A stretch of 64,000 nucleotides of DNA from Elusimicrobiales bacterium (lineage in GTDB: Bacteria > Elusimicrobiota > Elusimicrobia > Elusimicrobiales > UBA9959). Shown here piece after piece: positions 2,623-60,151 of the stretch. Where the stretch lies: positions 548,505-612,504 of the forward strand of contig JAQTOU010000002.1 of the NCBI GenBank assembly GCA_028713125.1, written 5' to 3'. A model generated the notes under the pieces. It searched no databases. It was given only the letters and a program-made list of their open reading frames with translations, and had not been told where the DNA came from. The position numbers and the translations under genes were made by a program. How positions within the stretch are numbered: position 1 is the stretch's first letter; each line of letters starts with the position of its first letter.

Positions 2623-4068
2623 ATGAAACAGGAAAAAGCTAAAATAATAACTGTGGCAAAAGGCTTATTTCTCATATTCTGTGGTATTGCCGCGGCTACT
2701 ATGAACGCTAAAGCTTCTTTTTCAGCCGATTCCGCCTGCGGGGCAAGGTCCGCCGCTATGGGCGGCGCCTTTACCGCCGTTTCCGGGGGCGCCGAGGCCA
2801 TTTGCTCCAACCCCGCCACCCTCCTTGAGCTTTCCTCGCCGGAGCTTACCGCCGCCTATGGGCGCCTCTTCTCCGGCCTTACCGACGATTCCAAGATCGG
2901 CCAGGGCTATTTCGGCTTTGCGGCTCCCGTTAAGCGCTACCTTCCCGGTGCGGCTGCCTTCGCCTGGAACGATACCCGCCTGAGCGAGGCCTATTCCGAA
3001 ACCTCCTATTCCGTCAGCTACGCCACCACCGTTTACCGCGGGATAGGCGCCGGCCTTACCCTTAAATATCTCCGCCGCAGTTATGTCTCCGACGCTTACA
3101 CCGCGCTCGACCCGGTCTTCGCCAACGGTTACGCCAAAGGCGCGCTGGGAGCGGACCTGGGCTTTTTCTACCGGCCCCAGGCTAATTACGCTTTCGGCCT
3201 TTCCCTCAAGAACATAAATAAGCCGGATATGGGCCTGGCCTCCGCCGACCGCCTGCCCGTGGAAGTGCGCGCCGGCGCCTCCTACCTTATGAGGGCGAGC
3301 CTGCTGGACATCGACGCCGCTTTCGCCGGCCCGGACTATACGATCTCGACCGGCCTGGAATATTCTTTCCAGAAGCGCTACGCCCTGCGCATGGGCCTGG
3401 CCGCGGGGAATAATTCCCGCCGCAACGTGAACATCGGTTTCGGCGGGCGCTTCGGCCTGGCCGCTTTCGATTACGCTTTCAGCCTGCCTATCGGCGGCAT
3501 CGCCAATACGAACGGCTCGCACCGCCTGGCTTTCTCTTTCCGCTTCGGAAACGAAGCCGACCTGCTCCGCGCCGAGGAACTCGCCGCGGCCGCCGAGCTC
3601 AAGCGCGCCCAGGAAAAGACTTTCCTGCAGGAAGAAAAGATCCGCGTTCTGCAGGAGCGCCTCGACGGCGTAGTCCGGCAGCAGGGCGCCGTCCCCGCGC
3701 AGCAGCCCGTGCAGGTGATCCAGCTGGCTCCCGCCCCGGCGCAGCCCGCGCTCCAGGCGCAGCCCGATTCAGCCGCGCAGGCCGAGATCGCCCGCCAGCT
3801 CGACGTTCTTAAGGCGGAACTCGAGAAGTCACGCGCCGAAATGGAAGCCATGAAGGCGCGCGCCGCGGCCAAGCCCGCCCCGCAGCCCAAGCCCGCCCAG
3901 GCCGCCGCTCCCCACAGCTACGTGGTCAAGGAGGGGGACACCCTGGAGAGCATAGCCGCTTCAGTGTACGGCAACGCTTCGCGCTGGCCCGAGATCTACC
4001 GCGCCAACTCCGGCTCCCTGGGCCGCGGCGGCGAGGTGAAACCCGGGCAGGTGCTGACGCTGCCTTGA
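2623..4068 (+). CDS. PorV-like outer-membrane barrel with coiled coil and C-terminal LysM
   Basis: 481 residues. A signal peptide (to about residue 30) precedes a barrel-like region (about 35-310) starting with ARSAAMGGAFTAVSGG and NPATLLE, the signature of PorV/UPF0164-type outer-membrane proteins. Residues 315-430 form a Glu/Ala-rich coiled coil with Pro/Gln linkers. The end (about 432-481) is a LysM domain (YVVKEGDTLESIAASVYGNA) expected to bind peptidoglycan. The protein would tie the outer membrane to the cell wall. It heads an operon with two giant coiled-coil proteins and a membrane response regulator; the next gene starts 9 bases after its stop. Confidence 0.8.
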   Translation: MKQEKAKIITVAKGLFLIFCGIAAATMNAKASFSADSACGARSAAMGGAFTAVSGGAEAICSNPATLLELSSPELTAAYGRLFSGLTDDSKIGQGYFGFAAPVKRYLPGAAAFAWNDTRLSEAYSETSYSVSYATTVYRGIGAGLTLKYLRRSYVSDAYTALDPVFANGYAKGALGADLGFFYRPQANYAFGLSLKNINKPDMGLASADRLPVEVRAGASYLMRASLLDIDAAFAGPDYTISTGLEYSFQKRYALRMGLAAGNNSRRNVNIGFGGRFGLAAFDYAFSLPIGGIANTNGSHRLAFSFRFGNEADLLRAEELAAAAELKRAQEKTFLQEEKIRVLQERLDGVVRQQGAVPAQQPVQVIQLAPAPAQPALQAQPDSAAQAEIARQLDVLKAELEKSRAEMEAMKARAAAKPAPQPKPAQAAAPHSYVVKEGDTLESIAASVYGNASRWPEIYRANSGSLGRGGEVKPGQVLTLP

Positions 4069-4077: not shown

Positions 4078-7000
4078 ATGAAAGAGAATTTTGACGAATC
4101 TTCCCTGAACGAGGCCGCAATAAACGACGTGGAAACCGCGCGTCTCGCCCTGCGCTGGGCGCTGGACAAGATCCGCGCGCAGCACGAGGAGGACCTGAAG
4201 GTCCGCCAGAGCCTGCAGGATAAAGCCAGCCAGGTTTCCTTCCTCGAAAACCAGCTTAAAGCCAAGAACGTAGAGATCGACCGCTCCACCCGCGTGCACG
4301 AGGAGGAGATGAAGTCCCGCCAGAGCTCGCTGGAGTACCAGTTCCATTCCCGGCTCGAGCGCCTGACCGAGCGCGAGAAAGAGCTGGAGGATAAAGTTTC
4401 CAAGAACGAGGAGATCCTCAAGCAGAAAGAGCTGCGCCTGCAGGACGACTACCAGAAGAAGTCCGAGGAGCTGCGCGGCCGCTGGGCGTCGGTGGAGGGC
4501 GAACTGTGGCAGCTGCGCCAGGAACAGCTGGCCAAGCAGCAGGAATTCGAGCGCGTCTACGGCGCCCGCCTGGAAGAGGAAAAGAAGAGATTCGCCGAGG
4601 AAGCCGCCGTCCAGAAGAACAACCTCGAGGAGACCTACCGCAACCGCGTCGAGGAGCTCGAGAAGCGCGAGCGCTCTTCCAGCGACGAGCTGAAGAAGCA
4701 GGAGGCCGTGCTGAAGTGGGCCAAGGACAGCTGGCAGAAAGACACCGAGGAGCGCGAGCGCGCCCTGAAGCACAAAGATCTCGAGATCGACAAGAAGATC
4801 CTGGAGAAGAACCAGGAGATAGACGATTACAAGGTGAAGGTCTCCCTTTTCGAGAAGCAGCTCCGGGAATTCCCCGAGGCCATGAAGCGCCGGGACGAGG
4901 ACCTCAACCGCTACAAGGACGCCATCTCGAGCCTCGAGAGCGTTATCCGCACCCTTGAAGTGGAGAAGAAGAACCAGCAGGCCGACTACGAGTCCCGCCT
5001 CGCCAAGGCCGGCGATTCCATAGAGACGGAGCGCAACCGCTACCGCGAAATAGAGTCCGAGATCCCCAAGCGGCTCAAGATAGCCATCGAGCACGAGCGC
5101 AACCGCTACGCCGAGAAGCTGCAGGAGATAGAGCACGGCTACCGCGAAGACCTGGGCAAGCGCCAGGACGAGGTGGAATACCTCCAGCGCAACCTCCGCA
5201 CTTTCGAAGAGACCATCAAGACCCTGCAGGCCGAGCGCGAGGCTTTCTCGCACAAGGTCGAGCAGATGCAGACCCAGTACAATGTCAAGCTGGAGGAATT
5301 CTCCTTCCGCGAGAAGCAGCTGCAGTCCGAGTACGACGTGCGCCTCAAGGTGGAGATGGAGAAGCACACCGCCTCGCTGCGCTCCGAGATCGAGACCGCC
5401 GGCCGCATCTACGAGGACAGCCTGCGACTGAAGGTGGAGGAGATCTCCCACCTGCGCAGGGATATAGAAGAGCTTTCCAAAGAAAAGGCCGCCGGCAAGG
5501 AGCAGCAGGTTTCGCTGCGCCGCGAGATGGAGGCCGCCGACGCCCGCGCCGCCTCCGAGCAGACGGCCCTGCGCGCCAAGCTGAAGGCGGAGTACGACCA
5601 GAAGCTGGCGGACGAATCGGTACACGCCGAAAAGCGCCACTCCGCGGAAAAACAGAAATTCGTGGACGAGCTGGAAGGCCGCAAGATGGAATTTATGGCC
5701 GAAGTCGGCCGCAAGGACGAGGATATCAATACGCTGCGCCTTTCCCTCCAGAAGGCGGGGGAAGACCTGCGGATGCTGCGCCAGAAAGCCGGGGAGGAGC
5801 AGAAAGCGGCCGTCGCCGAGGAGCGCGCCCGCTCCGCCGCGGAGCTGGACGACAGGTCCGCCCGCCTGGCCGCCACTATCGCCCTGCGCGACGAGAAGAT
5901 CGCCGAGCTGTCCAAGGCGCTTGACGCCTCCAAGATCGAAAGGGAAGAGACCGTGCTGCTCGAGCGCGAGCGTATGCAGCGCCTCTACACCGAGAAAGAG
6001 AAGGCTATCGACGAGGAGCTGGCCGCCCGCGACGCCGAGCTGTTCCGGGTCCGCGAGGCGCTGGTAAAGGCCGCCGCCGAAAAGGACGCTATCGCCTCTG
6101 GCTACGCCGCCGAGAAGCGCGCCCAGGAAGAAAAATACGCGGCGCTCGCCGCGCGCCTTACCGAAGAGGAAGCCGACGCCGGCGTAAAGCTGGACGCCGC
6201 GCTGCGCCGCGAGGCCGACCGCTACGGCGAGATAATCGAGCGCAAGAACCGCGAGCTGGAAGCCGCCGCCCAGCTGCGCCAGTCCCAGGATGAGACCTAC
6301 AGGAAGACCCTCGCCGACTTCCGCAATAACCTTTCGGATACGCTCGCTAAATTCGAGGCCCTCAAGAGCACGGCCGAGGAGCGGCAGATGCAGCTTTCCG
6401 TGCTGCAGATAGAGCTGGCCCAGGAAAAGAAGCAGGCCGGGGACCAGATCTCGTCGCTCTCAGCCAAGCTCTCCGACAAGGACAGGCTCCACCGCGAGCT
6501 CCGTTCCGAGTTCGACAGCTTCAAGGAAGCTTTCGAGGAGGAGGTCAAGGCGGGCGAAAGGAAATACAATGACGCCCTCCTCAAGCTGCGCGCCGCCGAG
6601 GAACAGAAGGCCGCCAGGGACAAGCAGATAGACGCGCTCAAGCGCGACGGCGAGCTGCTGCGCGCGGAGAACCAGCGCCGGGAGCACGAGGCGGCGGAAC
6701 TGAAGAGCGCCTCCGCCAAACAGATCGAGAACGACCGCCGCGAGATCCACGCCGCCGGCGAGCGCCGCGCCCACGAATACGCGCAGAAGGAAAAAGCGCT
6801 GCTGGCCGAGATCTCCTCGCTCCGCGACATCTTTAATTCCAAGGACCTCCAGCTGGAGAAGCACAAGGTCCAGTACGACGAGGCCCGCAACAGCGCCGAG
6901 CGCCTGAAGGCCATGCTCGAGGAGGAGCGCGCGAAGCAGGCTGAGACCGACGCGGCCCGCCGCGCCACGCTCGAGAGCATACAGAGCGCTTTTGAGAGCG

Positions 7001-7581
7001 AGAGGAACAAGCGCGAGGCGGCCGAGGCCGCGGCCCAGTCCGCCATCTCCGCGCTGCGCGACAAGGCCGCGGAGTTCTCGGGCCAGCGCTCGGAGCTCGA
7101 GGGGCTTATCCGCTCCGTAGAGCGCATGAAAGTTTCCTTCGAGGAAGAGCGCCGCAAGCGCGCCGAGGCGGAAGCCGCCGCCGAAAGTTCCGGCCGCGCG
7201 CTGCGCGATAAAGCCGAAGAATCCCTGGAGCACCGCTCTGAAATAGAGGCCCTGCGCCACGCCGTGGACCGCATGAAAGCGGCTTTCGCGGACGAGCGCA
7301 AGAAGCGGGCCGACGCCGAACTGATGGCGGGCACCATGCGCTCCGCGCTTAACGAGAAGACCGAGGAAACGATGGGACGCGCTTCCGAGGTCGAGGCCCT
7401 TAAGCACGGCATCGAGCGCCTCAAGCACGCTTTCGAGGAAGAGCGGGCCAAGCGCGTAGAAAGCGAGCTCCTCGCCCAGACCGCCCACTCGGCCCTGCGC
7501 GAAAAGCAGGAAGAATTCATCCGCACCCAGAAACTCGTGGATCAGCTCAAGGACAAGCTCAAGATATGGAAGAGCAAGTAA
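4078..7581 (+). CDS. Giant coiled-coil protein (1167 residues)
   Basis: Almost the whole protein is heptad-type coiled coil, rich in Glu, Lys, Arg, Ala and Leu, with no signal peptide or membrane segment, so it should be cytoplasmic and rod-shaped. Residues 971-1167 are four consecutive 49-residue repeats (pattern AFEEERxKRxEAE...SALRxK...EVEALxxxIERLK); 49 is exactly seven heptads. I recognise no enzymatic domain. Its stop overlaps the next gene (start at 7566) by 16 bases, indicating translational coupling with the coiled-coil kinase. Likely a cytoskeletal or scaffold protein for the downstream kinase; that role is inference from context. No good Shine-Dalgarno precedes this ATG. Confidence 0.8.
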   Translation: MKENFDESSLNEAAINDVETARLALRWALDKIRAQHEEDLKVRQSLQDKASQVSFLENQLKAKNVEIDRSTRVHEEEMKSRQSSLEYQFHSRLERLTEREKELEDKVSKNEEILKQKELRLQDDYQKKSEELRGRWASVEGELWQLRQEQLAKQQEFERVYGARLEEEKKRFAEEAAVQKNNLEETYRNRVEELEKRERSSSDELKKQEAVLKWAKDSWQKDTEERERALKHKDLEIDKKILEKNQEIDDYKVKVSLFEKQLREFPEAMKRRDEDLNRYKDAISSLESVIRTLEVEKKNQQADYESRLAKAGDSIETERNRYREIESEIPKRLKIAIEHERNRYAEKLQEIEHGYREDLGKRQDEVEYLQRNLRTFEETIKTLQAEREAFSHKVEQMQTQYNVKLEEFSFREKQLQSEYDVRLKVEMEKHTASLRSEIETAGRIYEDSLRLKVEEISHLRRDIEELSKEKAAGKEQQVSLRREMEAADARAASEQTALRAKLKAEYDQKLADESVHAEKRHSAEKQKFVDELEGRKMEFMAEVGRKDEDINTLRLSLQKAGEDLRMLRQKAGEEQKAAVAEERARSAAELDDRSARLAATIALRDEKIAELSKALDASKIEREETVLLERERMQRLYTEKEKAIDEELAARDAELFRVREALVKAAAEKDAIASGYAAEKRAQEEKYAALAARLTEEEADAGVKLDAALRREADRYGEIIERKNRELEAAAQLRQSQDETYRKTLADFRNNLSDTLAKFEALKSTAEERQMQLSVLQIELAQEKKQAGDQISSLSAKLSDKDRLHRELRSEFDSFKEAFEEEVKAGERKYNDALLKLRAAEEQKAARDKQIDALKRDGELLRAENQRREHEAAELKSASAKQIENDRREIHAAGERRAHEYAQKEKALLAEISSLRDIFNSKDLQLEKHKVQYDEARNSAERLKAMLEEERAKQAETDAARRATLESIQSAFESERNKREAAEAAAQSAISALRDKAAEFSGQRSELEGLIRSVERMKVSFEEERRKRAEAEAAAESSGRALRDKAEESLEHRSEIEALRHAVDRMKAAFADERKKRADAELMAGTMRSALNEKTEETMGRASEVEALKHGIERLKHAFEEERAKRVESELLAQTAHSALREKQEEFIRTQKLVDQLKDKLKIWKSK

Positions 7582-10500
7582 GCCATATAAGCGACCTTGA
7601 AGGTCTGAACTCAGAACTTGAGGGCTTTCTCGCCGACCTGCACGGCCGCGAGGAGTCCATGTCCGTGCGCGTAAAAGCCCTCGAGGAAGAGCTGGCCGGG
7701 GTCCGCAATTCGGCCGCCGCCGCGATGGGCCGCATGACGCAGAAGGAGACCTCCCTCGCCTCCGCGCTGGAGCAGCTGCGCGCCGCCCTCAATAGTGAAA
7801 CCTCCAGGAGCTCTACCCTCTCCCTTGAGAGGGAAAACCTGTCCCGGCAGCTGGAAGTGGTTTCCGCCCGGCTTGAAGATTCCAAGGCTTCCGCGGCTGA
7901 AAAAGAGGAACTGCTGAAAGCCGCGCGGGCTTCCGCCAAGGAGGAGTCCGCGAAGTCCTCCGCGGCGATAGAGGGGCTCCAGGGTTCCCTGCTTACGGAG
8001 AGCTCCAGGGTAGCGGTCCTTGCCGCCGAGCGCGACGGCCTGCTCCGCCAGGTGGAGGATATCTCCGGCCGCCTTAAAGACGCTAAAGCCATCGCCGCAG
8101 AAAAGGACGCTTTGATGCAGGAGGCCCGCGCGGCCGCCAAGGAGAAGTCGGCCGTGCAGTCCGCGGCGCTCGACCAGCTCCGCGCTTCGCAGGAAGACCT
8201 GGCCGCGAAAACGGCCGCCCTGAGTTCGGAGCACGACGGGCTACTTGCCCGGCTGAAAGAATATTCTTCCCTGCTCCAGGAGGAAAAAGACGCTTCCTCG
8301 AAAAAGGACGCTTTGCTCGATGAAACCCGGGCCGCCGCCAAAGCCAAGAGCGCTGAACTGTCCGCGGTCATCGACCAGTTGAAGACCTCGCTGTTCGAGG
8401 AAAGCCTGAAGGTGGAGGCCATGGTTTCGGAGCGGAACGGGCTGCTAAGGCAGTTCGAGGAGTCCGCCTCGCTGCTCGAGGGAGAGAAAGCCGCTTCCGC
8501 GAAAAAAGACGCTTTGCTGAACGAGACCCGGGCGGCCGCGAAGGCCAAGGCCGCCGAACTCTCCGCCGCTATCGACCAGGTAAAGGCCTCCCTGCTCGAA
8601 GAAAATTCCAAGGTGGAGGCCCTGGCGCTCGAGCGCGACGGCCTTCTCCGCAAGCTCGAGATGGAGGCACGCAGTCTTGAGGCGGAAAAATCCAGGTCCG
8701 CGGAAAGAGAGCTGCTTATTAACGGGGCGCGCTCCGCGCTCAAAGACAAGGACGCGGAGATCGAGAGGCTGCTCAGGACCGCGGAGGACCTGAAGACCGA
8801 GCTTACCCTCGAGCGCGCCAATGTGAAAGACCGGGAGGCCCAGCTGCAGAAGGCCGCAAGATTTACGGAAGGCGTCGAGCGCCGCCTCGACCAGGCCGCG
8901 CAGGAGAACTCGCGCACCGAAGAGGGCTACCTCCTTAAGATAGAGCTGGTAAAGAAAGAGCTGCGCGAGCAGACCAAGCGCACCGAAGAGATAGAGCGGA
9001 AGCTGTCGGCCGCCGGCGCCAGGCTTGAGGACTCGCTCGACGAGGTCGGGAAAAAAGAAAAAATGCTGGCCGAGGCCAACGCGGCCCTGGCAGAAAAAGA
9101 CGCTCAGCTTAAAGACGCCAACCTGAAACTCAAAGAGCTGACGAAAGAATTCGCGGAAGTCAAAAGTGGCAGCGGGCACGAAAACGTCCAGCGCGCCAGG
9201 GAGATGACCGCCTCCATGGCGGCCCGGGTCGAGGAACTCGAGAACGCGATGTCCGAAGCCGCGGCCCGCAGCCTGGAAAAATTCCGCGCCTCCCAGGCGG
9301 AGCTCAGCGCCTCCAAGGCGGCGCTCCGCGTCAAGGAAGAGGAAAACGCCAGTCTTAAATCCCGGGAAAGCTCCCTTATAGGCGAGCTCTCCGACGCCGA
9401 AGAAAAATGGAAGCTGGCATCGGCGCAACTCCATAACGCGGTCTCAAGGCTGCGGAACGCCGAGAACGAGAACGAGATAGCGCTCGGGCGCCTCAAGTCC
9501 GTGGAAGAGGAGAGGAATAAATTCCGCGCGGCCGCGATCAAGGCCGAAACCGCCTCCGCGTACATGGCAGCGCAGGAATCCAGGGCGCGCGACGGCGAGG
9601 CCTCCGGCCTTATGGCCGCCCTCGAGGAGCAGGCGGGGATGTACACCGCCCTGCTGCGCAAATACGACGATATCGTCCTGCTTAATGAAAACCTGGCCCG
9701 CGAGAAAGCCGGCGACAGGGCCGAGGCCGATTCCCTGCGCGAGGCGCTCAAATCCGCGCAGGCCGCGGCCGAGGCGGAGTCGGGCGAGAAGCGCGGCGTC
9801 CAGTCCGGCCTCGCCGGGAAGCTCCGGGAAGCGGAAGCGCAGCTGAAGAAAAAGGAATTCGAACTTGAGGAGGCCTGCGCCATCGCCAAGGCGGCCGGCT
9901 CCGAGGCCGTCTCGCTGCGCGCCCGTCTGAAGGAAACGGCCGCTTCCGCCGCCGCGGCGGCCGGCGAGGCCGAAGCCGAGAAGTCCCGCTACGCCGCGCT
10001 TACCGAGAAAATGCGCGCCGCCGACGCGCAGCTGAAGAAAAAAGAATCGGAGCTGGATGAAGCCAGGAACTCCCTTAAGTCCGCGCAGGAAGCGGCGGAG
10101 GCGGCGACCGGGGAGAAGAAAGGCCTGCAGGCCGGCCTGGCCGAGAAGCTGCGAGGCGCGGAAGCGCAGCTTAAGAAAAAAGAATTCGAGCTGGAGGAGG
10201 CCCGCGCCGCGGCGGCTTCCGCCGGCGACGAGGCTGCCCTGCTGCGCGCCCACCTGCAGGAGACGGCGGCGTCCGCCGCGGGAGAGGCCGAGGCCGAGAG
10301 GGCCCGCTACGCCGCGCTTTCCGAAAGGATGCATAACGCGGACGCGCTGCTCAGAAAAAAAGAATTCGAACTGGACGAAGCCCGGGGCGCGCTTTTCGCG
10401 CTGGAGAACGAATGTTCCCTGCTGCGGGCCAGCCGCGCGGCTCTCGGCGAGAAATACTCCCGCGAGATCCATGCCGAGAACGAGCTGCTGAAAGAGGCGC

Positions 10501-11585
10501 AGGCCAGGGTGGTGGAGCGGGATTCCTCCATCGCGCGGCTTTCCCTGGCGGAGGAAGAACTCAGGAAAGAGGCGGAGGCGCTTAAGAAGGAAAAGCAGAA
10601 TCTGCTTTCCCTGGTGCGCAAAAAATCCGCCGCCTCGACCCATTCCGTCAAGGTCTCGGAAGCCGAGCGCATGCTGGCGGACAAAGAAAGCCGCCTTATG
10701 AAGCTCCGCTCCGAACTGGAGAACACCCGTGCGGAAAAAGCGGAGCTGCAGGGCAGGGAAAAGGAGCTCCGCGAGGAGCTCAAGGCCCGGCCCTACCGCG
10801 CCATGCTGCGCGAGGCGGAGGATAACCTCCTGATCAAGGAGAAGATGCTGGCCGAAGTGACTTCGCGCATGAAGAAGATCGGCAAGGACTTCGAGGACCT
10901 TAAAGACCGCGGCCAGGCCGCCGGCGCTCCCGGCTATATTCCTGATTTCGAGGAGCTGGTGGCCGGGGTGGCGCACCAGGTGGCCAATTCCATCAGCATC
11001 ATCCGCAGCCACGCGGAGTTCTGCGCCGAAACCCCGGAGGCGGAGGGCGCGAAGGAATCGCTGAACGTAATAGTCCGCAATATCGTGAACCTGCAGAAGA
11101 AGATAGACATAATAATGAATTTTTCAAAGCCGGTCATCCCTCAGCGCTCGCCGGAGCGCCTGGCGGCCGTGCTTTCCGAAGTTATGAACGGGCTCCGCTC
11201 TTCCGGCCGCCTGGAGAATATAAAAGTGAGCGTTAAGGGGGGGGAGAAGCTCAAGCCCGTCAACCTGGACAGGGTGCGTTTCGCCTCGGCGGTGGAGCAG
11301 CTGCTCCTCAACGCCGTGGAGGCCATGCCCGACGGAGGAGACCTGTCGGTGCTCCTTTCCGGCGGCGACGGCAGGCAGCGCCTCGAAGTGTCCGACACGG
11401 GGGCCGGGGTCGAAAAGAAAAACCTGGCCGCAGTTTTTCATCCTTTCTTTACCACGCGGCCCGGCAAAATGGGGCTGGGCCTTACCCTCGCCCGCAACGT
11501 GGCCAGGGCGCACGGTGGCACGCTGGAACTTCTGAACAATCCGGACAAGGGCGCCAGGGCGGTGCTGGAAGTGCCCGAAGCCTGA
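7566..11585 (+). CDS. Coiled-coil histidine kinase (1339 residues), soluble
   Basis: Residues 1 to about 1110 are continuous coiled coil, including about five 67-residue repeats (near 90-420; AAAKAKSAELSAxIDQ...ERDGLLRxLE) and a second family with AQLKKKEFELEEA. The C-terminal 220 residues are a histidine kinase: H-box VAGVAHQVANS with the phospho-acceptor His near residue 1137, N-box EQLLLNAVEAMPDG, G1 DTGAGV, F-box FFTTRPGKMGLGL. The His is followed by Gln rather than the usual Glu. There is no membrane segment or PAS/HAMP domain, so the rod itself is probably the input. The cognate regulator follows 8 bases downstream. Confidence 0.88.
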   Translation: MEEQVSHISDLEGLNSELEGFLADLHGREESMSVRVKALEEELAGVRNSAAAAMGRMTQKETSLASALEQLRAALNSETSRSSTLSLERENLSRQLEVVSARLEDSKASAAEKEELLKAARASAKEESAKSSAAIEGLQGSLLTESSRVAVLAAERDGLLRQVEDISGRLKDAKAIAAEKDALMQEARAAAKEKSAVQSAALDQLRASQEDLAAKTAALSSEHDGLLARLKEYSSLLQEEKDASSKKDALLDETRAAAKAKSAELSAVIDQLKTSLFEESLKVEAMVSERNGLLRQFEESASLLEGEKAASAKKDALLNETRAAAKAKAAELSAAIDQVKASLLEENSKVEALALERDGLLRKLEMEARSLEAEKSRSAERELLINGARSALKDKDAEIERLLRTAEDLKTELTLERANVKDREAQLQKAARFTEGVERRLDQAAQENSRTEEGYLLKIELVKKELREQTKRTEEIERKLSAAGARLEDSLDEVGKKEKMLAEANAALAEKDAQLKDANLKLKELTKEFAEVKSGSGHENVQRAREMTASMAARVEELENAMSEAAARSLEKFRASQAELSASKAALRVKEEENASLKSRESSLIGELSDAEEKWKLASAQLHNAVSRLRNAENENEIALGRLKSVEEERNKFRAAAIKAETASAYMAAQESRARDGEASGLMAALEEQAGMYTALLRKYDDIVLLNENLAREKAGDRAEADSLREALKSAQAAAEAESGEKRGVQSGLAGKLREAEAQLKKKEFELEEACAIAKAAGSEAVSLRARLKETAASAAAAAGEAEAEKSRYAALTEKMRAADAQLKKKESELDEARNSLKSAQEAAEAATGEKKGLQAGLAEKLRGAEAQLKKKEFELEEARAAAASAGDEAALLRAHLQETAASAAGEAEAERARYAALSERMHNADALLRKKEFELDEARGALFALENECSLLRASRAALGEKYSREIHAENELLKEAQARVVERDSSIARLSLAEEELRKEAEALKKEKQNLLSLVRKKSAASTHSVKVSEAERMLADKESRLMKLRSELENTRAEKAELQGREKELREELKARPYRAMLREAEDNLLIKEKMLAEVTSRMKKIGKDFEDLKDRGQAAGAPGYIPDFEELVAGVAHQVANSISIIRSHAEFCAETPEAEGAKESLNVIVRNIVNLQKKIDIIMNFSKPVIPQRSPERLAAVLSEVMNGLRSSGRLENIKVSVKGGEKLKPVNLDRVRFASAVEQLLLNAVEAMPDGGDLSVLLSGGDGRQRLEVSDTGAGVEKKNLAAVFHPFFTTRPGKMGLGLTLARNVARAHGGTLELLNNPDKGARAVLEVPEA

Positions 11586-11593: not shown

Positions 11594-12838
11594 ATGTCAC
11601 GTATCCTTATAGTGGACGACGAACCCGACATGCGCCTTGCGGTGCGCAATGTCCTGAAGCTGCGCGGCTATGAGATTTCCGAGGCCGGAGACGGCCCTTC
11701 GGCCCTCGAGATGGCCAGGGAAAGCCGCCCCGACCTCGTGCTGCTGGACATGCGCCTGCCGGGCATGGACGGTATCGAGGTCCTGGAAGGCCTTAAAAAG
11801 ATAGACGACACGGTCCCGGTAGTGATGATAACCGGCTACGGCCACATCCAGTCGGCAGTGGACGTTATGAAGCTCGGCGCCAGCGAATACCTGCAGAAGC
11901 CATTTGAGAACGCGCAGCTCGTGGAGACGGTAAAGAGATTTATACAGAGCCCGGCTAAACGGCGCGTCCCCGCCGAAGACTCCGGCGGCGGGGTCGCCGT
12001 CGCGGTAAAAGTCCAGGCTCCCGTGCGGCAGCCGGCGCTCCAGCCGGCCGCTTCGGTCCAGGCTCCGGCCGCCGCCGTCCAGGCGCCTCAGGCCGCCCGG
12101 AGCGCCCGGAATCCTTTCTATGTCCTGGCCGCCTCGCTGGCTCTACTCCTGGCCGGCTTCGGCGTCTACCGGCAGGTGCAGGCCAATTCAGCCGGCTACT
12201 ACCGCGAATATCCCGGCGTCGCGGCCAACATCTCTTCCCTGGTCTGGGCCGACGGAAAACTTTTCGCGGGCGACTGGCTCTCCCAGTCGGTTTACCTCTA
12301 TTCGGCGGACAAGGACGGGCTGCACCTGGAGGAAACTTTCCCTCTCGAGAAAACCCATATCAGCGGACTGGCCGCCGCCGGCGACACGCTCTATATAGCC
12401 GACTCCTGGAAAAAGACCATCGAGGCCAGGCGGATCGCCCCCGGGCTGCCGCTTCTTAAAAGTTTCCCGGCGCCCGGCAAGGTAAGCGCGCTGTTCTATG
12501 ACGGGGAATACTTGTGGACCTGCGACAGCGAGGGGAACGCGGTGCTGCGCCGTCCTGATTCGGAGCTGACCCCGTCCGTTTCTTTCAAGCTCCAGGAGAA
12601 GCCCGACCAGATCTTCAAGGACAAGGACTACCTGTGGACGGCGGTCTCCTCGACCGGCAAGATCTACCGCCATAAGCTGGACGACAGCCTCACTCCGGAC
12701 GGGGTGTTCGCGCTCAAGACCCGGAGGGAAGGCGCCCCGCTTTCAGCGTTCGCCTGGCGCGGCGAAAGGCTATGGCTGGCAAGGGACGGCCTCGGAATTA
12801 TCTTCGAGGCGGGAAGAGCGGAACTTCTAAAGGAATAA
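11594..12838 (+). CDS. Response regulator receiver fused to a membrane helix and predicted beta-propeller
   Basis: 414 residues. Residues 1-120 are a complete CheY-like receiver (DD at 8-9, phospho-acceptor D52 in LLDMRLPGMDG, T80, K102). A Pro/Ala/Gln linker (about 130-170) leads to one membrane helix (about 174-192, FYVLAASLALLLAGFGVY). Residues 195-414 contain repeated strand units with paired aromatic/Asp motifs (SLVWADGKLFAGDWLSQSVY, YDGEYLWTCDSEGNAVLRR, KDYLWTAVSSTGKIYRH), most like an NHL/WD-type propeller outside the cytoplasm. There is no DNA-binding or enzymatic output. It sits 8 bases behind the kinase gene with an AGGAAATTT leader. It could also be read as a sensor whose receiver is the cytoplasmic module. 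Confidence 0.85.
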   Translation: MSRILIVDDEPDMRLAVRNVLKLRGYEISEAGDGPSALEMARESRPDLVLLDMRLPGMDGIEVLEGLKKIDDTVPVVMITGYGHIQSAVDVMKLGASEYLQKPFENAQLVETVKRFIQSPAKRRVPAEDSGGGVAVAVKVQAPVRQPALQPAASVQAPAAAVQAPQAARSARNPFYVLAASLALLLAGFGVYRQVQANSAGYYREYPGVAANISSLVWADGKLFAGDWLSQSVYLYSADKDGLHLEETFPLEKTHISGLAAAGDTLYIADSWKKTIEARRIAPGLPLLKSFPAPGKVSALFYDGEYLWTCDSEGNAVLRRPDSELTPSVSFKLQEKPDQIFKDKDYLWTAVSSTGKIYRHKLDDSLTPDGVFALKTRREGAPLSAFAWRGERLWLARDGLGIIFEAGRAELLKE

Positions 12839-12871: not shown

Positions 12872-12903
12872 AGAAACCCCGCCGAAGCGGGGTTTCTTTT
12901 TTG
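12872..12903. terminator. Bidirectional terminator between convergent genes
   Basis: Perfect 11-bp stem AGAAACCCCGC / GCGGGGTTTCT with a CGAA tetraloop, followed by TTTTTT on the plus strand. It separates the coiled-coil operon from the convergent pilin gene. Confidence 0.9.
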
Positions 12904-12945: not shown

Positions 12946-13395
12946 TTAGTCGATCAGTTCGTTCAGGACGGCGGACGGGTTGGCCATCTTGACCTGGGCC
13001 ATATCGGGCACGTTGGCCGTAACGGCGTAGTTGCCGTAGCGGGCCGCGACGCTGGAATTGGTCGTGTGGCGGGTGACGGTGATCTGGAAGCAGGGGCCGC
13101 TGGCGCAGTTGCCCGCGTTGACCACCGCGGTGAAGAACTTGGTCGTTATATTGCCGGCGGTCATGCCGTTGTACATGATGTCGAGCTGGGTGAAGTCGGA
13201 GGTGTACACGCCGCCGCGGGCCAGGTACCTTTCCTCGGCGGACTTGACGGAGGAGATCAGCGACATGGCTTCCGCCACGCGGGCTTTCTCTACGACTTTA
13301 AAGTATTGCGGTATGGCTATGGAAGCCAGGATACCGATGATGAGCACGACCACGAGCAACTCTATCAGCGTGAAACCTTTTCTATTGTTTTTCAT
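12946..13395 (-). CDS. Type IV pilin / pseudopilin
   Basis: 149 residues. The N-terminus is a textbook prepilin: short basic leader MKNNRKG, cleavage before F, then TLIELLVVVLIIGILASIAIPQ with the conserved Glu at +5. The rest is a short globular domain with two cysteines 4-5 residues apart. It is assembled into type IV pili or a type II secretion pseudopilus; PilT is encoded in the same window (19294-20382). A strong GGAGGGG ribosome site precedes the ATG. The gene is monocistronic, ending against the terminator at 12872-12903. Confidence 0.93.
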   Translation of the reverse strand: MKNNRKGFTLIELLVVVLIIGILASIAIPQYFKVVEKARVAEAMSLISSVKSAEERYLARGGVYTSDFTQLDIMYNGMTAGNITTKFFTAVVNAGNCASGPCFQITVTRHTTNSSVAARYGNYAVTANVPDMAQVKMANPSAVLNELID

Positions 13396-13493
13396 AAATC
13401 CCCCTCCGTAGCGTTAATTATCAGAACTTATAAAGAGTATATCACAAAAAAACATTCCGTTGTGTGGATTCTTTGTGAGTTTTCTGTGAGGGC

Positions 13494-14198
13494 TTATTCA
13501 GCCTCGTCCCATTTATAGCCAAGGCCTTCCACGGTGATAAGGTTCCCGTGCATTTTCCCGAGGCTCTTGCGGATGTTCTTTACATGCGTATCTATCACGC
13601 GGCTGGTATTGAGATACGGCCTGCCCCAGATCCTCTCCATCAGGAACTGGCGCGTCATCACCCGGCCTGATTTTTTTACCAGGAGGTGCAGGATCTCGAA
13701 TTCCTTGGGCGACAGGTCGAGGAGCCTGTCGTCTATCTTCGCCTCGTGCCTGGGGTAGTTTATGACCAGGGCGCCCGAGGAAATGGTCTCTTCCGCGCCG
13801 TCCCGCTCTTCGGCGGAGAGGCTGCGCCGGATAAGGGCTTTGACGCGGGCTATGAATTCGGCCGGGCTGAAGGGCTTGGTCATGTAATCGTCGCCGCCAA
13901 GTTCCAGGCCCAGCACCTTGTTCACCTCGCTCCTGTCGGTGGTCAGAAAGATTATAGGTACTAGCCTGGCCGGGCTTTCGGAAGCGCGCACCTGCCTGCA
14001 GAAATCCAGGCCGCTCATGCCGGGCAGCCTGAGGTCCACCACCATCAGGTCGGGGGTGAACTTGACCAGCGCCGCCAGCGCCTGCTCCGCGGAGGTGCAG
14101 GTGAGCACGGTGTAATTCTCAAGCTCCAGGCGCTCCTTCACCGCTTTCAGGAGCGCGTGTTCGTCGTCGATCACAAGGATGGTCTGTTTTGCCGGCAT
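13494..14198 (-). CDS. OmpR/PhoB-type response regulator
   Basis: 234 residues: receiver domain (1-120; DDEHAL acidic pair, VVDLRLPGM phospho-acceptor, K in YMTKPFSPAEF) and a winged-helix DNA-binding domain (about 135-232; LSPKEFEILHLLVKKSGRVMT, RVIDTHVKNIRKSLG, GLGYKW). It is a transcription factor controlled by the histidine kinase encoded 11 bases upstream (14210-15613). Ordinary family member of normal length; its target genes cannot be read from here. Confidence 0.95.
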   Translation of the reverse strand: MPAKQTILVIDDEHALLKAVKERLELENYTVLTCTSAEQALAALVKFTPDLMVVDLRLPGMSGLDFCRQVRASESPARLVPIIFLTTDRSEVNKVLGLELGGDDYMTKPFSPAEFIARVKALIRRSLSAEERDGAEETISSGALVINYPRHEAKIDDRLLDLSPKEFEILHLLVKKSGRVMTRQFLMERIWGRPYLNTSRVIDTHVKNIRKSLGKMHGNLITVEGLGYKWDEAE

Positions 14199-14209
14199 AA
14201 GAACGTCCC

Positions 14210-15613
14210 TCAGGAGGGCAGGAAAATAGAGAAGGTGTTGCCGCCCGCGCCGCTCTCCGCCTCTATCCTGCCGCCATGCAGCTCTATCAGGTATTTGGCT
14301 ATGAAAAGCCCGAGCCCGGTGCCCTGCCTGGCGGACGGGTATTCCCGCCTGCCCGAGCTGATCCTGTAAAACTTGCTGAAAATATTCTTAAGCTCGTGGG
14401 GCGGTATCGGGGCGCCGGTGTCGCAGACGCGCACTTTCTGCCAGCCCGGCAGGGTCTCGATAAAAACGCTGACCGAGCCGGAGTCCGTGAACTTCACGGC
14501 GTTGCCTATGACGTTGGCCAGGACCTGGTAAAGGCGGTCCTGGTCGCCGCGGACGTCGGGTATCTCCCCGGCCACGATGAATTCCAGCTTGAGGCCTTTC
14601 TGCGCGGCGTAGGTCTTGAAAGCGCGCACCGCCCGGTCCACCAGGTTCTCGAGGTTCATCGGTTTCAGGTCGAGCGTCAGCTTGCCGGACTCTATCCTGG
14701 AAACCTCGAGCATCGAGTCTATGAACCGCTTCAGGCGCTGGGAATGTTCGTTTATCGAGAACACCTGTTCCGGGATCCTGGCGGATTCGCGTTTTTCCGC
14801 AAGCTTTAAAATAATATCGGAGCAGAGCTCGATGCCGGTTACCGGGGAGCGCAGGTCATGGGTTATGCTGGAGACGAAATCCCTTTTCATCTCGTCGTAT
14901 TCCTTGAGCTTGTCCGCCATCTTGTTGAACTCGGCGGCAAGCCCTCCCAGCTCGTCTTTGGAGGCGATCGGGACCCTGTGGTCGAGCTGGCCCGAGCCGA
15001 TGATGCGGGCCGCCTCCTCTATAGTCTGGATCGGGCCGGCTATCACCCGGGTTATTATCAGGGTGCCGGCGCAGCCTATGGCGAAAGCGATGGAGAGGAT
15101 TATAAAAAAGTTGGCCGATGACTGCCGCAGGGAGGAATCCATTTCCTGGTAGATCAGCTGGGTCGAAAAGTCCACGCGCGCGGTGATCTCTCCGGTCCTG
15201 CCCCTGGCGCTGAACGACGCTTTCAGGATGTCGACCCCGTTGTCGCTGCTGGTCTCCCATGTGCCGGTGTTCGGGGGGGAAAAATTTTTGAAATAGTAGC
15301 GGAACGGGGGAGGGTAGGGGCTGTAGTAGCGGTCTTCCATGAAAACCCGGCCGTCGGGCCCGCTGCAGGAAACCTTGATAATTTCAGGGGCTTTGAGGAA
15401 CTCCTTGAAATATTTATAAGCGGAAGACTTGTCCGGGGTGCGGTACATCTCCTTGCACACTTCCGACATCGAGAGCAGGATCTGCAGGTTTTTCCGCTGG
15501 CTGTTGGCGGAGATGGAGGACCATTCGTTATGCTGGAACAGGAAGGCGGTTACCGCCGAGATCGCTGTCAGGAGTGTAAGGATGAAGAGGATGAGTTTTG
15601 TGCGTATACTCAT
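14210..15613 (-). CDS. Membrane sensor histidine kinase with HAMP domain
   Basis: 467 residues: first membrane helix (about 6-26), a periplasmic sensor region of about 125 residues, second membrane helix (about 155-178), HAMP linker (to about 232), HisKA H-box FVSSITHDLRSPVTG and HATPase with N (NVIGNAVKFT), G1 (VCDTGAPI) and G2 (GTGLGLFIAKYL) boxes. Paired with the downstream OmpR-type regulator. It starts 8 bases from the tRNA-Lys gene (15621-15692), so it may be co-transcribed with it. The sensed signal is unknown. Confidence 0.95.
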   Translation of the reverse strand: MSIRTKLILFILTLLTAISAVTAFLFQHNEWSSISANSQRKNLQILLSMSEVCKEMYRTPDKSSAYKYFKEFLKAPEIIKVSCSGPDGRVFMEDRYYSPYPPPFRYYFKNFSPPNTGTWETSSDNGVDILKASFSARGRTGEITARVDFSTQLIYQEMDSSLRQSSANFFIILSIAFAIGCAGTLIITRVIAGPIQTIEEAARIIGSGQLDHRVPIASKDELGGLAAEFNKMADKLKEYDEMKRDFVSSITHDLRSPVTGIELCSDIILKLAEKRESARIPEQVFSINEHSQRLKRFIDSMLEVSRIESGKLTLDLKPMNLENLVDRAVRAFKTYAAQKGLKLEFIVAGEIPDVRGDQDRLYQVLANVIGNAVKFTDSGSVSVFIETLPGWQKVRVCDTGAPIPPHELKNIFSKFYRISSGRREYPSARQGTGLGLFIAKYLIELHGGRIEAESGAGGNTFSIFLPS

Positions 15614-44613: not shown

Positions 44614-45902
44614 AAGAGTTTTCCGTTCAAAGTATTTTTATCAGCCTTTTCCACCAGGACTTCGGCCATCTTCCCGGGCGTTCCCCCTGCCTTGACTCTG
44701 ACCGCGAAATTTCCCGAGGCGCGGCCGTAAGTTTCGGTCTCAAAAAGAACTTCCTCTATTTTACCAATTCTTTCGTTTAAAATTACGCGCGAATTTGTTT
44801 TGACGGCGGCCAGCAGTTTTTCCAGCCTGGCCTCCATTTCTGCTTCGCTTATCGTAGCGGCCATTTCAGGTTTGTCCGAGCGGGGCGAATACTTGAAACA
44901 GTAGGCCATGGTGAACCGCCCCTCCTGCACCAGCTTCAGTGTGTCCTGAAAATCCTCTTCGGTTTCCCCGGGATAGCCTACTATGAAATCGGTGGAGACG
45001 GCCAGGTCCGGCGTCCCGGCGCGCAGCCGGGCGAGCAGGGCCAGGTACTGGGCGCGGGTATAGCCGCGGCGCATCAACTTCAGGATCCGGTCCGAGCCGG
45101 ACTGCACCGGCAAGTGCATATAGCGGGCAAGTTTCTTTTCCCGCGCGAGCAGGGCGGTGAAATCATCTTCGAAGTAAACAGGGTGCGGGCTCATGAAGCG
45201 CAGCCGCTGAAGTCCGGGCAGGGCCAGGGCTTTTTCCAGGAGTCCGGAGAACGTGGTCTTGTCCTGCCGCCAGGCGTTCACGGTCTGGCCCAGCAGGACT
45301 ATTTCTTTAGCGCCGGCTTCTATTTTCGCTGCGGCGTCTTTAAGGATAGCGTCCGCGGAAAGGAACACCGCCGGCCCGCGCACCGCCGGCACAATGCAGT
45401 AGGAGCATTTAAGGGAGCAGCCCCGCATGATGGTGACATAGGCGGTCTGCGGCGAGCGGAAAAGATTCTGATGCGCGGTTTCGCCTTCGGGAGAAGGTCC
45501 GAGCTGGTTTATGAGAGAGTCCTCGAAGGCCTCGATAGCTTTTGCCCCTACCACTTCGTCTACAAAAGGGAAACGGTTCTTTATGGCCTTTCCCCCCAGC
45601 TTCTGCGCGGCGCAGCCCACTACGAACAGTTTTCCCTCCGGCCGTTTCTCTTTCCAGACGCGCAGGCGACCTATCTGGGAGATGGCCTTGTCCTCCGCGC
45701 GCTGGCGCACGGTGCAGGTATTGACCACAACCGCGTCGGCCTTCTTGATCTCGTCGGTAAGTTCGTACCCCCGCCGCCTGAAGGCCGCGGCGATATTCTC
45801 CGAATCTGCCTCGTTCATCTGGCATCCGAACGTGATAATGCACACTCTCCGCGCGGGGCCGCCCGGAACGGGCGGCGACGCTGGATTTTGCCGTTTCTGC
45901 AT
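44610..45902 (-). CDS. miaB: tRNA-2-methylthio-N6-dimethylallyladenosine synthase, chimeric 5-prime end
   Basis: 430 residues. N-terminal cluster cysteines C27, C63 and C97, the radical-SAM motif CSLKCSYC (C162, C166, C169), and a C-terminal TRAM domain (SRVILNERIGKIEEVLFE). It methylthiolates i6A37 made by MiaA. The first 80 bases of the gene (45902-45823) belong to the mobile element: the same bases recur inverted at 47855-47934, and a diverged version stands at 62140-62061. The element joins at the Cys27 codon. The start has AAAGGA nine bases upstream, inside the element, and overlaps the 3-prime end of the recombinase gene. Confidence 0.96.
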   Translation of the reverse strand: MQKRQNPASPPVPGGPARRVCIITFGCQMNEADSENIAAAFRRRGYELTDEIKKADAVVVNTCTVRQRAEDKAISQIGRLRVWKEKRPEGKLFVVGCAAQKLGGKAIKNRFPFVDEVVGAKAIEAFEDSLINQLGPSPEGETAHQNLFRSPQTAYVTIMRGCSLKCSYCIVPAVRGPAVFLSADAILKDAAAKIEAGAKEIVLLGQTVNAWRQDKTTFSGLLEKALALPGLQRLRFMSPHPVYFEDDFTALLAREKKLARYMHLPVQSGSDRILKLMRRGYTRAQYLALLARLRAGTPDLAVSTDFIVGYPGETEEDFQDTLKLVQEGRFTMAYCFKYSPRSDKPEMAATISEAEMEARLEKLLAAVKTNSRVILNERIGKIEEVLFETETYGRASGNFAVRVKAGGTPGKMAEVLVEKADKNTLNGKLL

Positions 45903-47446
45903 TTGTTTTTTTCCTTTAAAATAAAAAAATTAAATGGCGCAAAAAATTCTGCATTTTTAATTTTTTTGTCGGAGATTTTGATGTTCCTGAACACCAGATT
46001 GAGGGCGCGTTTACGGGTGAGGTTGTCGGGTTTTCCCTTCCCCGGTTCTCCGACGGAGACATACTCGTTGACCCGCGCCAGATAGTCCGCGGATTTTTCG
46101 CGGTCTATCTGGCGCAGATCATAGAGGGCCACCAGTTTTTTCAGCTCTTCCGCTTCCAGGTAGAGCGACTGGTTTTTCTCTTCAAAGACCTCTTTGGAAA
46201 CATGGCCTTCCACGAAAATGTCGGTCAGTTTGCGCTGCTGTTCCAGGTTGCGGGCGAGCCTGGCTTTAAGTTCGCTTTTGGCCTGTTTTTCGCCTTCCGG
46301 GAGCGGGGCGGCCGGAAAAGTCATGTTCGTCCATCGGCTCCCAAAATCGTCGCTGCTGAGCAGTATTTCAAGGTATTCCTCTACCTGCGGCTCTATAACC
46401 TCGGCCTTTACGCTCTTGTTGGTGCAGGAGGAATAGCCGTTGTTCCGCGCGGAACAACGGTACCATTTCTTGGTGGCCCCGGTGCGGTGGTTGCAGACCG
46501 AAGACGCCCCGATATACTTGTGGTTGCACTTCTCGCAGAACAGGAGGCCGGACAAGATGTAATCGCCGGGGCGGGCGCGGCGGCACCTTATGCGCCTTTC
46601 GGCGCGAAGTTTTTGCGCTTGCGCAAAAACTTCATCGCTGAGTATGGCTTTATGTTTGCCCCGCGCGATTATGATCTTGTCCGTAGGGCACTTAACGTAT
46701 TTGTAGCCCTTGGGCGTCTTTTGGGTTTTGTCGTAATGGTGGGCGCTCCAAACTATTGTGCCGGTATAGATCTGGTTCTTTAAGATGTCGAAGATGGCCT
46801 TGGTGCCGAAACAGTTGCCTTTGCGGTTCCTTATGCCCTGCTTTGCCAGTAAAGCGCCTATGGCCCAGGAACTCTTGCCCTCAAGGTACAGGGCGTAGAC
46901 GTGCCTCACCACCTTGGCCTCGCTCTCCACCACCTCAAGCAGCTTGGCGGCCTTGTTATAGGTGTAGCCGTAGGGCGCGAACCTTGAACCCAGCCAGTTG
47001 CCCTGCATGGCGCTCTTTACCATGCCGGGGTACACGCGCTCCGCAATGCGGCTGCGCTCGAACTCGGCGAAACTGCCAAGCTGCTGGAACATCATGCGCC
47101 CGGTCGAGGTTGTGCTGTCAAAGGGCTCGCCGGCGGATTTAAAGCCCACGCCGTGGCCTGATAGATGGTCTACAAGGTTAAGCAGGTCCCTGAGGTTCCG
47201 GCTGAAGCGGTCAATTTTAGCTACCAGCACCAGCCCGAACTTGCCGCCTTTGGCGTCAGCCATAAGTGCGGCAAGCGCGGGCCTGTCCGTGGTGGCCCCG
47301 CTGATGCCGTCGTCCGAGTAGACCTTGTAAACCTCAAGACCCTCGCGCTTGGCGAAAGCCTCAAGGGTTTCCCTCTGCACAATAAGCGAGGTGCCTTCCC
47401 TGGCTTGGTCTTCCGTGGAGACCCTGAGATATAAAGCGGTTTTCAT
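45815..47446 (-). CDS. Large serine recombinase (integrase), left copy
   Basis: 543 residues. Resolvase domain with catalytic Ser10 (LYLRVSTEDQ), YSDDGISGATTDRPAL and DRFSRNLRDL; recombinase domain (PYGYTYNKAAKLLEVVESEAKVVRHVY); zinc ribbon (LLFCEKCNHKY ... YRCSARNNGYSSC); coiled-coil tail. It catalyses integration and excision at the miaB site. Start at MKTALYL with AAGG upstream, two bases behind the helix-turn-helix gene. Its last codons run into miaB (antisense-free, same strand) and stop just past the junction (SDAR). About two-thirds identical by eye to the right copy. Confidence 0.95.
   Translation of the reverse strand: MKTALYLRVSTEDQAREGTSLIVQRETLEAFAKREGLEVYKVYSDDGISGATTDRPALAALMADAKGGKFGLVLVAKIDRFSRNLRDLLNLVDHLSGHGVGFKSAGEPFDSTTSTGRMMFQQLGSFAEFERSRIAERVYPGMVKSAMQGNWLGSRFAPYGYTYNKAAKLLEVVESEAKVVRHVYALYLEGKSSWAIGALLAKQGIRNRKGNCFGTKAIFDILKNQIYTGTIVWSAHHYDKTQKTPKGYKYVKCPTDKIIIARGKHKAILSDEVFAQAQKLRAERRIRCRRARPGDYILSGLLFCEKCNHKYIGASSVCNHRTGATKKWYRCSARNNGYSSCTNKSVKAEVIEPQVEEYLEILLSSDDFGSRWTNMTFPAAPLPEGEKQAKSELKARLARNLEQQRKLTDIFVEGHVSKEVFEEKNQSLYLEAEELKKLVALYDLRQIDREKSADYLARVNEYVSVGEPGKGKPDNLTRKRALNLVFRNIKISDKKIKNAEFFAPFNFFILKEKNKCRNGKIQRRRPFRAAPRGECALSRSDAR
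45823..45992 (-). repeat. 170-bp inverted repeat, arm A
   Basis: Matches 47765-47934 in inverted orientation with one mismatch (45982 against 47775). It includes the last 29 or so codons of the recombinase core tail, the AT-rich miaB leader, and miaB bases 1-80. Confidence 0.93.
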
Positions 47447-47448
47447 AG

Positions 47449-47622
47449 CTACCTTATGGTTTCCTTCCACTTCTTTATCTTGCGCATGTCCGCCTCGGTG
47501 AACACCGGGTAGTTCCTGTAATCGCGTCCGGGCTTAATCCAGCCGCGGCTTATCCAGTTGTAGATGGTCTGACGAGTTACGCGCAGCAGTTTGGCGGCTT
47601 CAACCATGTTGTAGCGCTTCAT
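47449..47622 (-). CDS. Small helix-turn-helix protein (excisionase / AlpA-like)
   Basis: 57 residues: MKRYNMVEAAKLLRVTRQTIYNWISRGWIKPGRDYRNYPVFTEADMRKIKKW is one MerR-type helix-turn-helix, as in excisionases and AlpA regulators (shown here only as a description: MVEAAKLLRVTRQTIYNW is the key motif). Directly upstream of the recombinase gene with a 2-base gap, so it probably controls recombination direction. TATAAT ends 6 bases before the ATG at 47622 and no ribosome site is present: predicted leaderless. Confidence 0.85.
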   Translation of the reverse strand: MKRYNMVEAAKLLRVTRQTIYNWISRGWIKPGRDYRNYPVFTEADMRKIKKWKETIR

Positions 47623-47679
47623 AGGTAAATTATACAAAACTTTACACTTGTTGGGGGCAGCCGGTGGGGCGCGACCGAA

Positions 47680-47752
47680 CATTAACAGAAAAGCCCGCCA
47701 GGGCCGAGCGTATGCGAGGCCGGGGCGGGTTTTTAATAAACCAAGGTGCGCC
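47680..47752 (+). repeat. Terminator-bearing repeat, left copy
   Basis: ATTAACAGAAAAGCCCGCCA ... GGCGGGTTTTTAAT ... ACCAAGGTGC. The same block is present at 61520-61590 in the same orientation, with a different loop. The outer stem AAAGCCCGCC/GGCGGGTTTTT is an intrinsic terminator on the plus strand. Confidence 0.85.
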
Positions 47753-47764
47753 CCATCGGCGGGG

Positions 47765-47934
47765 GTTCAGGAACGTCAAAATCTCCGACAAAAAAATTAA
47801 AAATGCAGAATTTTTTGCGCCATTTAATTTTTTTATTTTAAAGGAAAAAAACAAATGCAGAAACGGCAAAATCCAGCGTCGCCGCCCGTTCCGGGCGGCC
47901 CCGCGCGGAGAGTGTGCATTATCACGTTCGGATG
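47765..47934 (+). repeat. 170-bp inverted repeat, arm B, with inverted attachment site
   Basis: Second arm. Its end (47934) joins directly to the 453-bp repeat, giving exactly the junction expected for the circular element (attP): recombinase tail, miaB 5-prime copy, then GAGCTGTGG. Confidence 0.93.
47855..47934 (+). pseudogene. Detached copy of the miaB 5-prime end (allele 1)
   Basis: Eighty bases identical to the start of the functional miaB, from ATG to the first two bases of the Cys27 codon, followed by TGAGCTG, which closes the miaB frame at once. Confidence 0.88.
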
Positions 47935-48385
47935 AGCTGTGGATTCAATTCAACCGTACCCTCTATAAGTTCCTCAAAACATTGTACGCCTGATCGGCTT
48001 TGGAAGCGGTAGGCCGAGCTTATCCGCGAGATGTCGTCGCAGGCGTGGCCACGCAGCGCGGCCCCGCACTGCTCCTTGCCGCGAGAAGCGGGTTCGCAAG
48101 GCTCGGCACTACGCGCCTTCGCTCTTGCTCCGCCGGTAGACTGCGCCTTATAACAACCTCCTTCTGCGCGGCCAGCCGGCCCCCAAAACCGGGGGCCTTG
48201 GCGGGCCGCTCCCGGGCCGCTTTCGCGGCCCGTACAGCAAGGTAGGCGGCATCTTATTGTGCCCCTCTTTGCGCGGCTGGGCGGCCCTGCCGCGCTGCGG
48301 TGTTGCTGTGCTGCACCCCCGGCCTGCCGGGCAGGCCGTACATCCCCGCATTTATTTTTTTCTTATTTTTAAATTATGGCCACCG
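47933..48385 (+). repeat. 453-bp inverted repeat, left arm
   Basis: Reverse complement of 61610-62062; I see no mismatch. Non-coding as far as I can judge, GC-rich, with strong hairpins (GGCCCCCAAAACCGGGGGCC, GGGCCGCTTTCGCGGCCC, GGCCTGCCGGGCAGGCC). Its first 63 bases continue the recombinase frame across the attachment junction. Confidence 0.93.
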
Positions 48386-48437
48386 ATAAGGATATACCTT
48401 ATTTCAGTTTCCCCTCTTTCAGGGTGGCAATAATTTA

Positions 48438-49456: not shown

Positions 49457-49471
49457 AAGCCCTCCCCAAAA

Positions 49472-50167: not shown

Positions 50168-50210
50168 TGCGTATCACTCCAAGATTATGCAGCTGTTTCT
50201 AATTGCTGAC

Positions 50211-50864: not shown

Positions 50865-50867
50865 GCT

Positions 50868-51101: not shown

Positions 51102-51108
51102 GGAAATA

Positions 51109-59416: not shown

Positions 59417-59422
59417 AACTAA

Positions 59423-60142: not shown

Positions 60143-60151
60143 ATATTTATC

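Follow-up and report, generated by a model that had tools for sequence, protein, structure and literature searches.

Receivers of two-component systems normally switch genes on inside the cell, and response regulators are catalogued by their cytoplasmic outputs, which bind DNA or proteins or act as enzymes. In the 64,000-nucleotide stretch of Elusimicrobiales DNA analysed here (the window), the gene at 11594-12838 encodes a 414-aa response regulator in which an intact receiver is joined through a linker and one transmembrane (TM) helix to a predicted periplasmic β-propeller, and this architecture is real, old and conserved. What emerges looks like a conserved and hitherto undescribed means by which two-component signalling could reach the cell envelope. 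A conserved family of this kind, its receivers linked across the membrane to periplasmic domains and its kinases soluble at the 23 loci measured, would widen the scope of two-component systems to include direct control, or sensing, of the envelope. A description of such a receiver-TM-propeller family was not found in the literature searched, which comprised openly licensed papers only, and within that incomplete coverage no use of the term 'transmembrane response regulator' was found either.

Architecture and conservation of the regulator

The regulator gene (+ strand, as are all features given below between 993 and 12902) starts with an ATG at 11594, its stop codon ends at 12838, and it contains no internal stops. 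Response_reg was the sole Pfam domain called in the protein (residues 4-113, E = 2.4e-33), and this match and residue conservation mark out a receiver domain at residues 1-119 (11594-11950). The phospho-acceptor D52 (11747-11749), T80 (11831-11833) and K102 (11897-11899) are all present, as the sequence-only reading had stated, and the acidic pair D8/D9 is in place as well. Then follow a Pro/Ala-rich disordered linker (residues 120-173, 11951-12112; pLDDT < 50 at 122-170), a single hydrophobic helix (residues 174-192, 12113-12169; Kyte-Doolittle 1.8) with arginines N-terminal of it, and a predicted periplasmic five-bladed β-propeller (residues 203-413, 12200-12832). The AlphaFold2 model of the 414-aa protein, built on 28 aligned sequences with a mean pLDDT of 84.6, displayed this same order, namely a CheY fold (1-119), an unstructured linker (122-170), a helix (174-200) and the propeller (203-413).

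By structural comparison using VIA-align, the receiver matched Spo0F (6ifh, Z 24.2, 43% identity) and the propeller matched a five-bladed glutaminyl cyclase (3mbr, Z 25.2, 207 aligned, 2.3 Å, 19% identity). At the sequence level the propeller showed weak SGL and NHL likeness, no one Pfam model covers it, and its profile found no significant match among PDB sequences (best E 1.5). As five-bladed glutaminyl cyclases head the fold matches (Z 20-25), the propeller could be thought of as a related enzyme regulated from inside; this is very improbable, given that its blades carry NHL/SMP-30-like D motifs at sequence identities below 20%, that Glu_cyclase_2 matched only one of 23 members, weakly (E 0.095), and that PF05096 matched in none of 41 genomes, with the controls matched. 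Hence membership of the glutaminyl cyclase family PF05096 was rejected, the fold being alike and the sequence family different.

A second membrane helix was not found in the regulator, so that the propeller must lie outside if helix 174-192 spans the membrane. Over the 10-residue flanks of the helix, a mean charge of +2.2 on the receiver side versus +0.9 on the other was determined in 52 full-length homologues (Wilcoxon p = 1.5e-5, the 52 rows not being independent of one another), and these charges fit an N-in orientation. We infer an N-in/C-out topology, and the earlier proposal of one membrane helix followed by a predicted extracytoplasmic propeller is supported.

Close homologues were identified in 26 of 32 genomes of the same genus and in three other genera of the family, on searching 61 genomes that include the source genome; among the named Elusimicrobiota relatives are Elusimicrobia bacterium GWA2_61_42 and GWC2_64_44. 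Relatives of the propeller occur in 111 of the 295 Elusimicrobiota genomes scanned, and the whole receiver-linker-helix-propeller chain was found in 24 of 40 distant loci examined; these 24 represent nine families, of which three lie outside the class of the window's organism. The 28 full-length sequences from genus and family and these 24 make up the set of 52, in which D8, D52 and K102 are invariant, and D9 and a T or S at position 80 are each kept in 50. Substitutions at these two positions were observed in L022 (genome G021; D9E, T80M) and L141 (genome G260; D9P, T80V), both retaining D8, D52 and K102. Plasmid records searched with the whole protein yielded receiver matches only, none spanning 80% of the query. 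A frameshift, misassembly or accidental gene fusion, which the sequence-only reading had named as what would undo it, is ruled out: the 52 full-length sequences that share the architecture come from many independent assemblies, which leaves it a negligible probability.

The upstream kinase and the operon

Only 8 bp upstream of the regulator gene lies that of a soluble coiled-coil histidine kinase of 1339 aa (7566-11585), the presumed cognate kinase, whose DHp/catalytic part (about 10953-11579) matches HATPase_c (E 5e-18) and HisKA (E 7e-5); its core resembles AtoS/ZraS, and no membrane helix was found in it. The kinase that had been read from the window is therefore there, and a histidine kinase gene directly precedes the receiver-TM-propeller gene in all 24 distant loci as well. 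Among 23 upstream kinases measured, none has a credible sensor-type membrane helix, the three minimal kinases that marginally pass the hydrophobicity threshold doing so at segments within the catalytic core; several, the smallest at 217-231 aa, consist of nothing but dimerisation (DHp) and catalytic domains. Where the propeller is joined to a pseudo-receiver or a coiled coil, a kinase gene stood beside it at none of 22 loci (some windows being short), and a histidine kinase-like gene was seen at three further loci, L131 (described below) among them, whose propeller protein is without an intact receiver. The regulator thus has the receiver fold, acidic pair, phospho-Asp, Thr/Ser and Lys of a response regulator and, by gene order, a co-encoded kinase, so phosphotransfer from the kinase at 7566-11585 to D52 is presumed. 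As the phospho-chemistry is conserved and the kinase gene is tightly coupled, the comparison of sequences indicates that selection acts on receiver phosphorylation.

Five genes, beginning at 993, 2623, 4078, 7566 and 11594, follow one another in the same orientation, with an overlap or an 8-bp gap between the last three. A probable intrinsic terminator of the operon, read from the sequence, lies at 12872-12902 (hairpin AGAAACCCCG / CGGGGTTTCT, then a T run). The first gene (993-2543) encodes a secreted surface protein with a CHU_C/FlgD-like C-terminal domain (about 2274-2501; CHU_C 32.3 bits, above the cut-off of 27), a predicted type IX secretion substrate. The second (2623-4068) encodes a PorV/PorQ-like outer-membrane barrel with a coiled coil and a C-terminal LysM (about 3919-4065), which scored 69 bits (E 5.2e-19) against PorV_fam NF033709, for which the curated cut-off is 90, and E 2.5e-7 for LysM, above the cut-off. 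The third (4078-7581) encodes a long coiled-coil protein of 1167 aa that is conserved in the operon, and shares its last 16 bp with the kinase gene. This order is conserved across the genus, adjoining a pilin gene and ftsQ-ftsA and, in some genomes, an OmpR/histidine kinase pair. On the opposite strand of the window (12946-15613), a type IV pilin-like gene, an OmpR-type regulator and a HAMP histidine kinase stand next to the operon, and the group is conserved there in several relatives. At a distance from the operon, two large serine-recombinase-like ORFs bracket an apparent type I restriction locus (45815-63711, named by eye), which has an extra ATPase-like gene between its subunit genes.

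Most propeller genes adjoin a gene for a PorV-like/LysM protein and many adjoin a gene for a surface protein with such a C-terminal domain, the barrel and surface-protein genes not being adjacent at every propeller locus; among the distant loci, a LysM-ending barrel neighbours many and a surface protein several. Genome-wide, 12 CHU_C and 32 PorV-family matches were counted, the latter often next to CHU_C genes, and a SprA-like protein of 1796 aa (L163:1092-6482, - strand) scored 119.7 bits (E 7e-35), below the 200-bit NCBIfam cut-off, with no SprA domain called by Pfam. The SprA-like protein and the CHU_C and PorV-family matches make it likely, on sequence grounds, that Elusimicrobiota have a divergent type IX-like system for export and display. 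GldL and GldM were not detected in this genome, and the control genomes were likewise silent, so this does not show their absence.

Proposed signalling across the membrane and its direction

The Pfam scan revealed no DNA-binding, AAA+, cyclase or other enzymatic output domain in the cytoplasmic part of the regulator, so that the receiver must work via partners or via the membrane; and the propeller, being so often encoded with a LysM-bearing barrel, is taken as the periplasmic dock of a trans-envelope assembly. Our favoured explanation, to which we would give slightly less than an even chance, is an inverted two-component system: the receiver, tethered to the membrane, would belong to such an assembly and be switched by a kinase that is soluble. 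Namely, the soluble cytoplasmic histidine kinase (7566-11585) would phosphorylate D52 of the receiver, which would hang by its flexible linker from the single TM helix, with the periplasmic five-bladed propeller at the helix's other end; the propeller would dock onto the coiled coil and LysM that make up the periplasmic part of the operon-encoded PorV-like outer-membrane protein, and the latter would carry or export the type IX-like surface protein. Phosphorylation would most likely cause the receiver to dimerise or to bind a cytoplasmic partner, e.g. the coiled-coil protein or the kinase, by which the whole assembly would be clustered, positioned or switched with no transcriptional output. 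In this scheme the type IX function in Elusimicrobiota that forms the context is predicted, gene order is what suggests that the propeller touches the LysM barrel, and the outward direction of control is presumed; outward signal flow is plausible, and the 'reversed flow' of information put forward earlier is a reasonable hypothesis, the inverted picture being strengthened by the solubility of the kinase. A more tentative proposal, which we regard as possible but somewhat doubtful, is that such inverted systems, with a soluble kinase and a membrane-spanning response regulator, exist phylum-wide, the phospho-receiver directly controlling the propeller and through it the LysM/PorV-like barrel and the surface protein with no transcription step; if true, this would be genuine inside-out signalling by aspartyl phosphorylation.

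How the signal might pass the membrane is constrained by the linker, which ranges from 14 to 61 aa (median 42.5) in the 52 full-length homologues and is not conserved in sequence. Since it is disordered, unconserved and of such variable length, a direct conformational push on the helix is unlikely, and the receiver more probably works by clustering, by dimerising or by docking to partners; with so long, disordered and variable a linker, there is also no evident structural route by which a signal would cross the membrane, which counts against the favoured explanation.

That a receiver may act on an envelope machine without an intermediary has a precedent in PorX of the Bacteroidota type IX system, whose CheY domain acts directly on the type IX membrane motor (PMC10951265, PMC5005315) and binds GldL, a contact kept by D54E and abolished by D54A (PMC10951265). 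Like PorX, the regulator has a receiver tied to a trans-envelope machine, with PorV-family and CHU_C partners here too, but PorX is soluble, bears a PglZ-type effector and is without a membrane helix, whereas the regulator has a helix and a periplasmic propeller. The protein was not assigned to the PorX family, as it reached 68 bits against the cut-off of 300 for T9SS_RR_PorX (NF052313), with the match confined to residues 3-119, and had no PglZ by Pfam. In LapD, too, a cytoplasmic signal acts on a periplasmic domain governing surface proteins, as proposed for the regulator, but LapD is a c-di-GMP-binding protein that works through HAMP and a signalling helix (PMC3032553), in contrast to the disordered linker and Asp phosphorylation here; a LapD-like inside-out receptor was rejected because the Pfam scan found no HAMP and no GGDEF/EAL in the regulator.

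Other known proteins share single parts with the system. The receivers of NtrX, FixJ, AtoC and Spo0F are indistinguishable from that of the regulator by sequence and fold, but the regulator differs from these proteins in spanning the membrane and in being without DNA-binding, AAA+ or cyclase output. PorE (PG1058) of the type IX system likewise links a five-bladed propeller to peptidoglycan binding (PMC5053529), but it is a predicted lipoprotein with TPR, CRD and OmpA_C in one chain, whereas here the LysM sits on the barrel protein. The archaeal MetOD3-REC-MetOD2 proteins are response regulators too, and one of their domains has been described as anchored in the membrane; there are four of these archaeal proteins, with another domain order and no propeller (PMC5847659).

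The layout of the regulator recurs in PknD of M. tuberculosis, in which a cytoplasmic phospho-signalling domain, a linker, one helix and an extracytoplasmic β-propeller follow one another (PMC4601284). PknD itself carries a Ser/Thr kinase and is described as an outside-in sensor, whereas the regulator is a receiver and the substrate of a separate kinase, and a PknD-like receptor kinase was rejected since Response_reg is the only cytoplasmic domain called by Pfam and a Ser/Thr kinase domain is absent. Because this same layout goes with a propeller reported to sense osmolarity (PMC4601284), a serious rival is that signals run outside-in, the propeller sensing the periplasm, the cell wall or the LysM barrel and altering phosphate uptake or retention by the tethered receiver, so that the sensor of the system would sit on the regulator and not on the kinase. 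We consider this rather unlikely. The solubility of the 23 upstream kinases measured, several of them without a sensor domain, and the presence of the PknD propeller (1rwl, Z 14.3) among the fold matches of a paralogue speak for it; however, the operon encodes no cytoplasmic output for such a signal, the huge N-terminal regions of the coiled-coil kinases could carry the input, and the linker is flexible.

Paralogues and other bearers of the propeller

The same genome encodes a paralogue (G000:C11:711093-712229, equal to L058:5094-6230) that has none of the receiver catalytic residues and aligns with the family over its full length (hhalign, 99.8%, E 3.8e-30). Its model has a CheY-like fold, a helix and a propeller, for which VIA-align listed 1rwl among the matches; as VIA-align listed propellers only, the fold of the pseudo-receiver rests on DSSP order and hhalign. 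The paralogue is conserved in the genus and beyond, and its gene adjoins a PorV-like/LysM gene of its own upstream and has no kinase gene beside it; that phospho-residues and kinase are missing together while fold, helix and propeller are kept speaks for the inverted two-component system. Other propeller genes encode TPRs or long coiled coils where the receiver would stand. In the propeller tree, a branch (100/99) separates the pseudo-receiver group from the rest, and a coiled-coil clade is nested among receiver-bearing propellers; the row labelled as coiled coil for L104 is a protein truncated at the end of its contig, with neighbours of the receiver type.

Non-phosphorylatable cytoplasmic modules thus also work with the propeller, which counts against the inverted switch; borne as it is by pseudo-receivers, coiled coils and TPRs too, the propeller may be a sensor or an anchor and not an output. 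As an anchor, it would only fix the receiver at an envelope site, e.g. the pole, set by the LysM/PorV-like complex, and the phospho-receiver would recruit cytoplasmic coiled-coil or motility proteins while the outside stays unchanged. The flexible linker, the very long coiled-coil partners and the occurrence of one anchor type under receiver, pseudo-receiver, TPR or coiled coil in different genes conform to this, but so consistent a co-encoding of barrel, LysM and surface protein would be left unexplained unless these define the site, and we judge the anchor unlikely. The series of phosphorylatable receiver, pseudo-receiver, TPR and coiled coil on one propeller allows the contribution of receiver phosphorylation to be asked.

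A split version of the receiver-propeller fusion is found at L131 (G079:C65, 1-4196), where a kinase, a free single-domain receiver, a LysM barrel and a coiled-coil-helix-propeller protein are encoded by four neighbouring genes. At L130, L133 and L134, proteins of ~690 aa consist of a coiled coil, a degenerate-receiver-like region, a helix and a propeller, with the barrel and surface genes present and the kinase absent. After the pseudo-receiver gene of the paralogue lies a small conserved gene (L058:6220-6531), which is PilZ-like by eye and had no Pfam or NCBIfam match.
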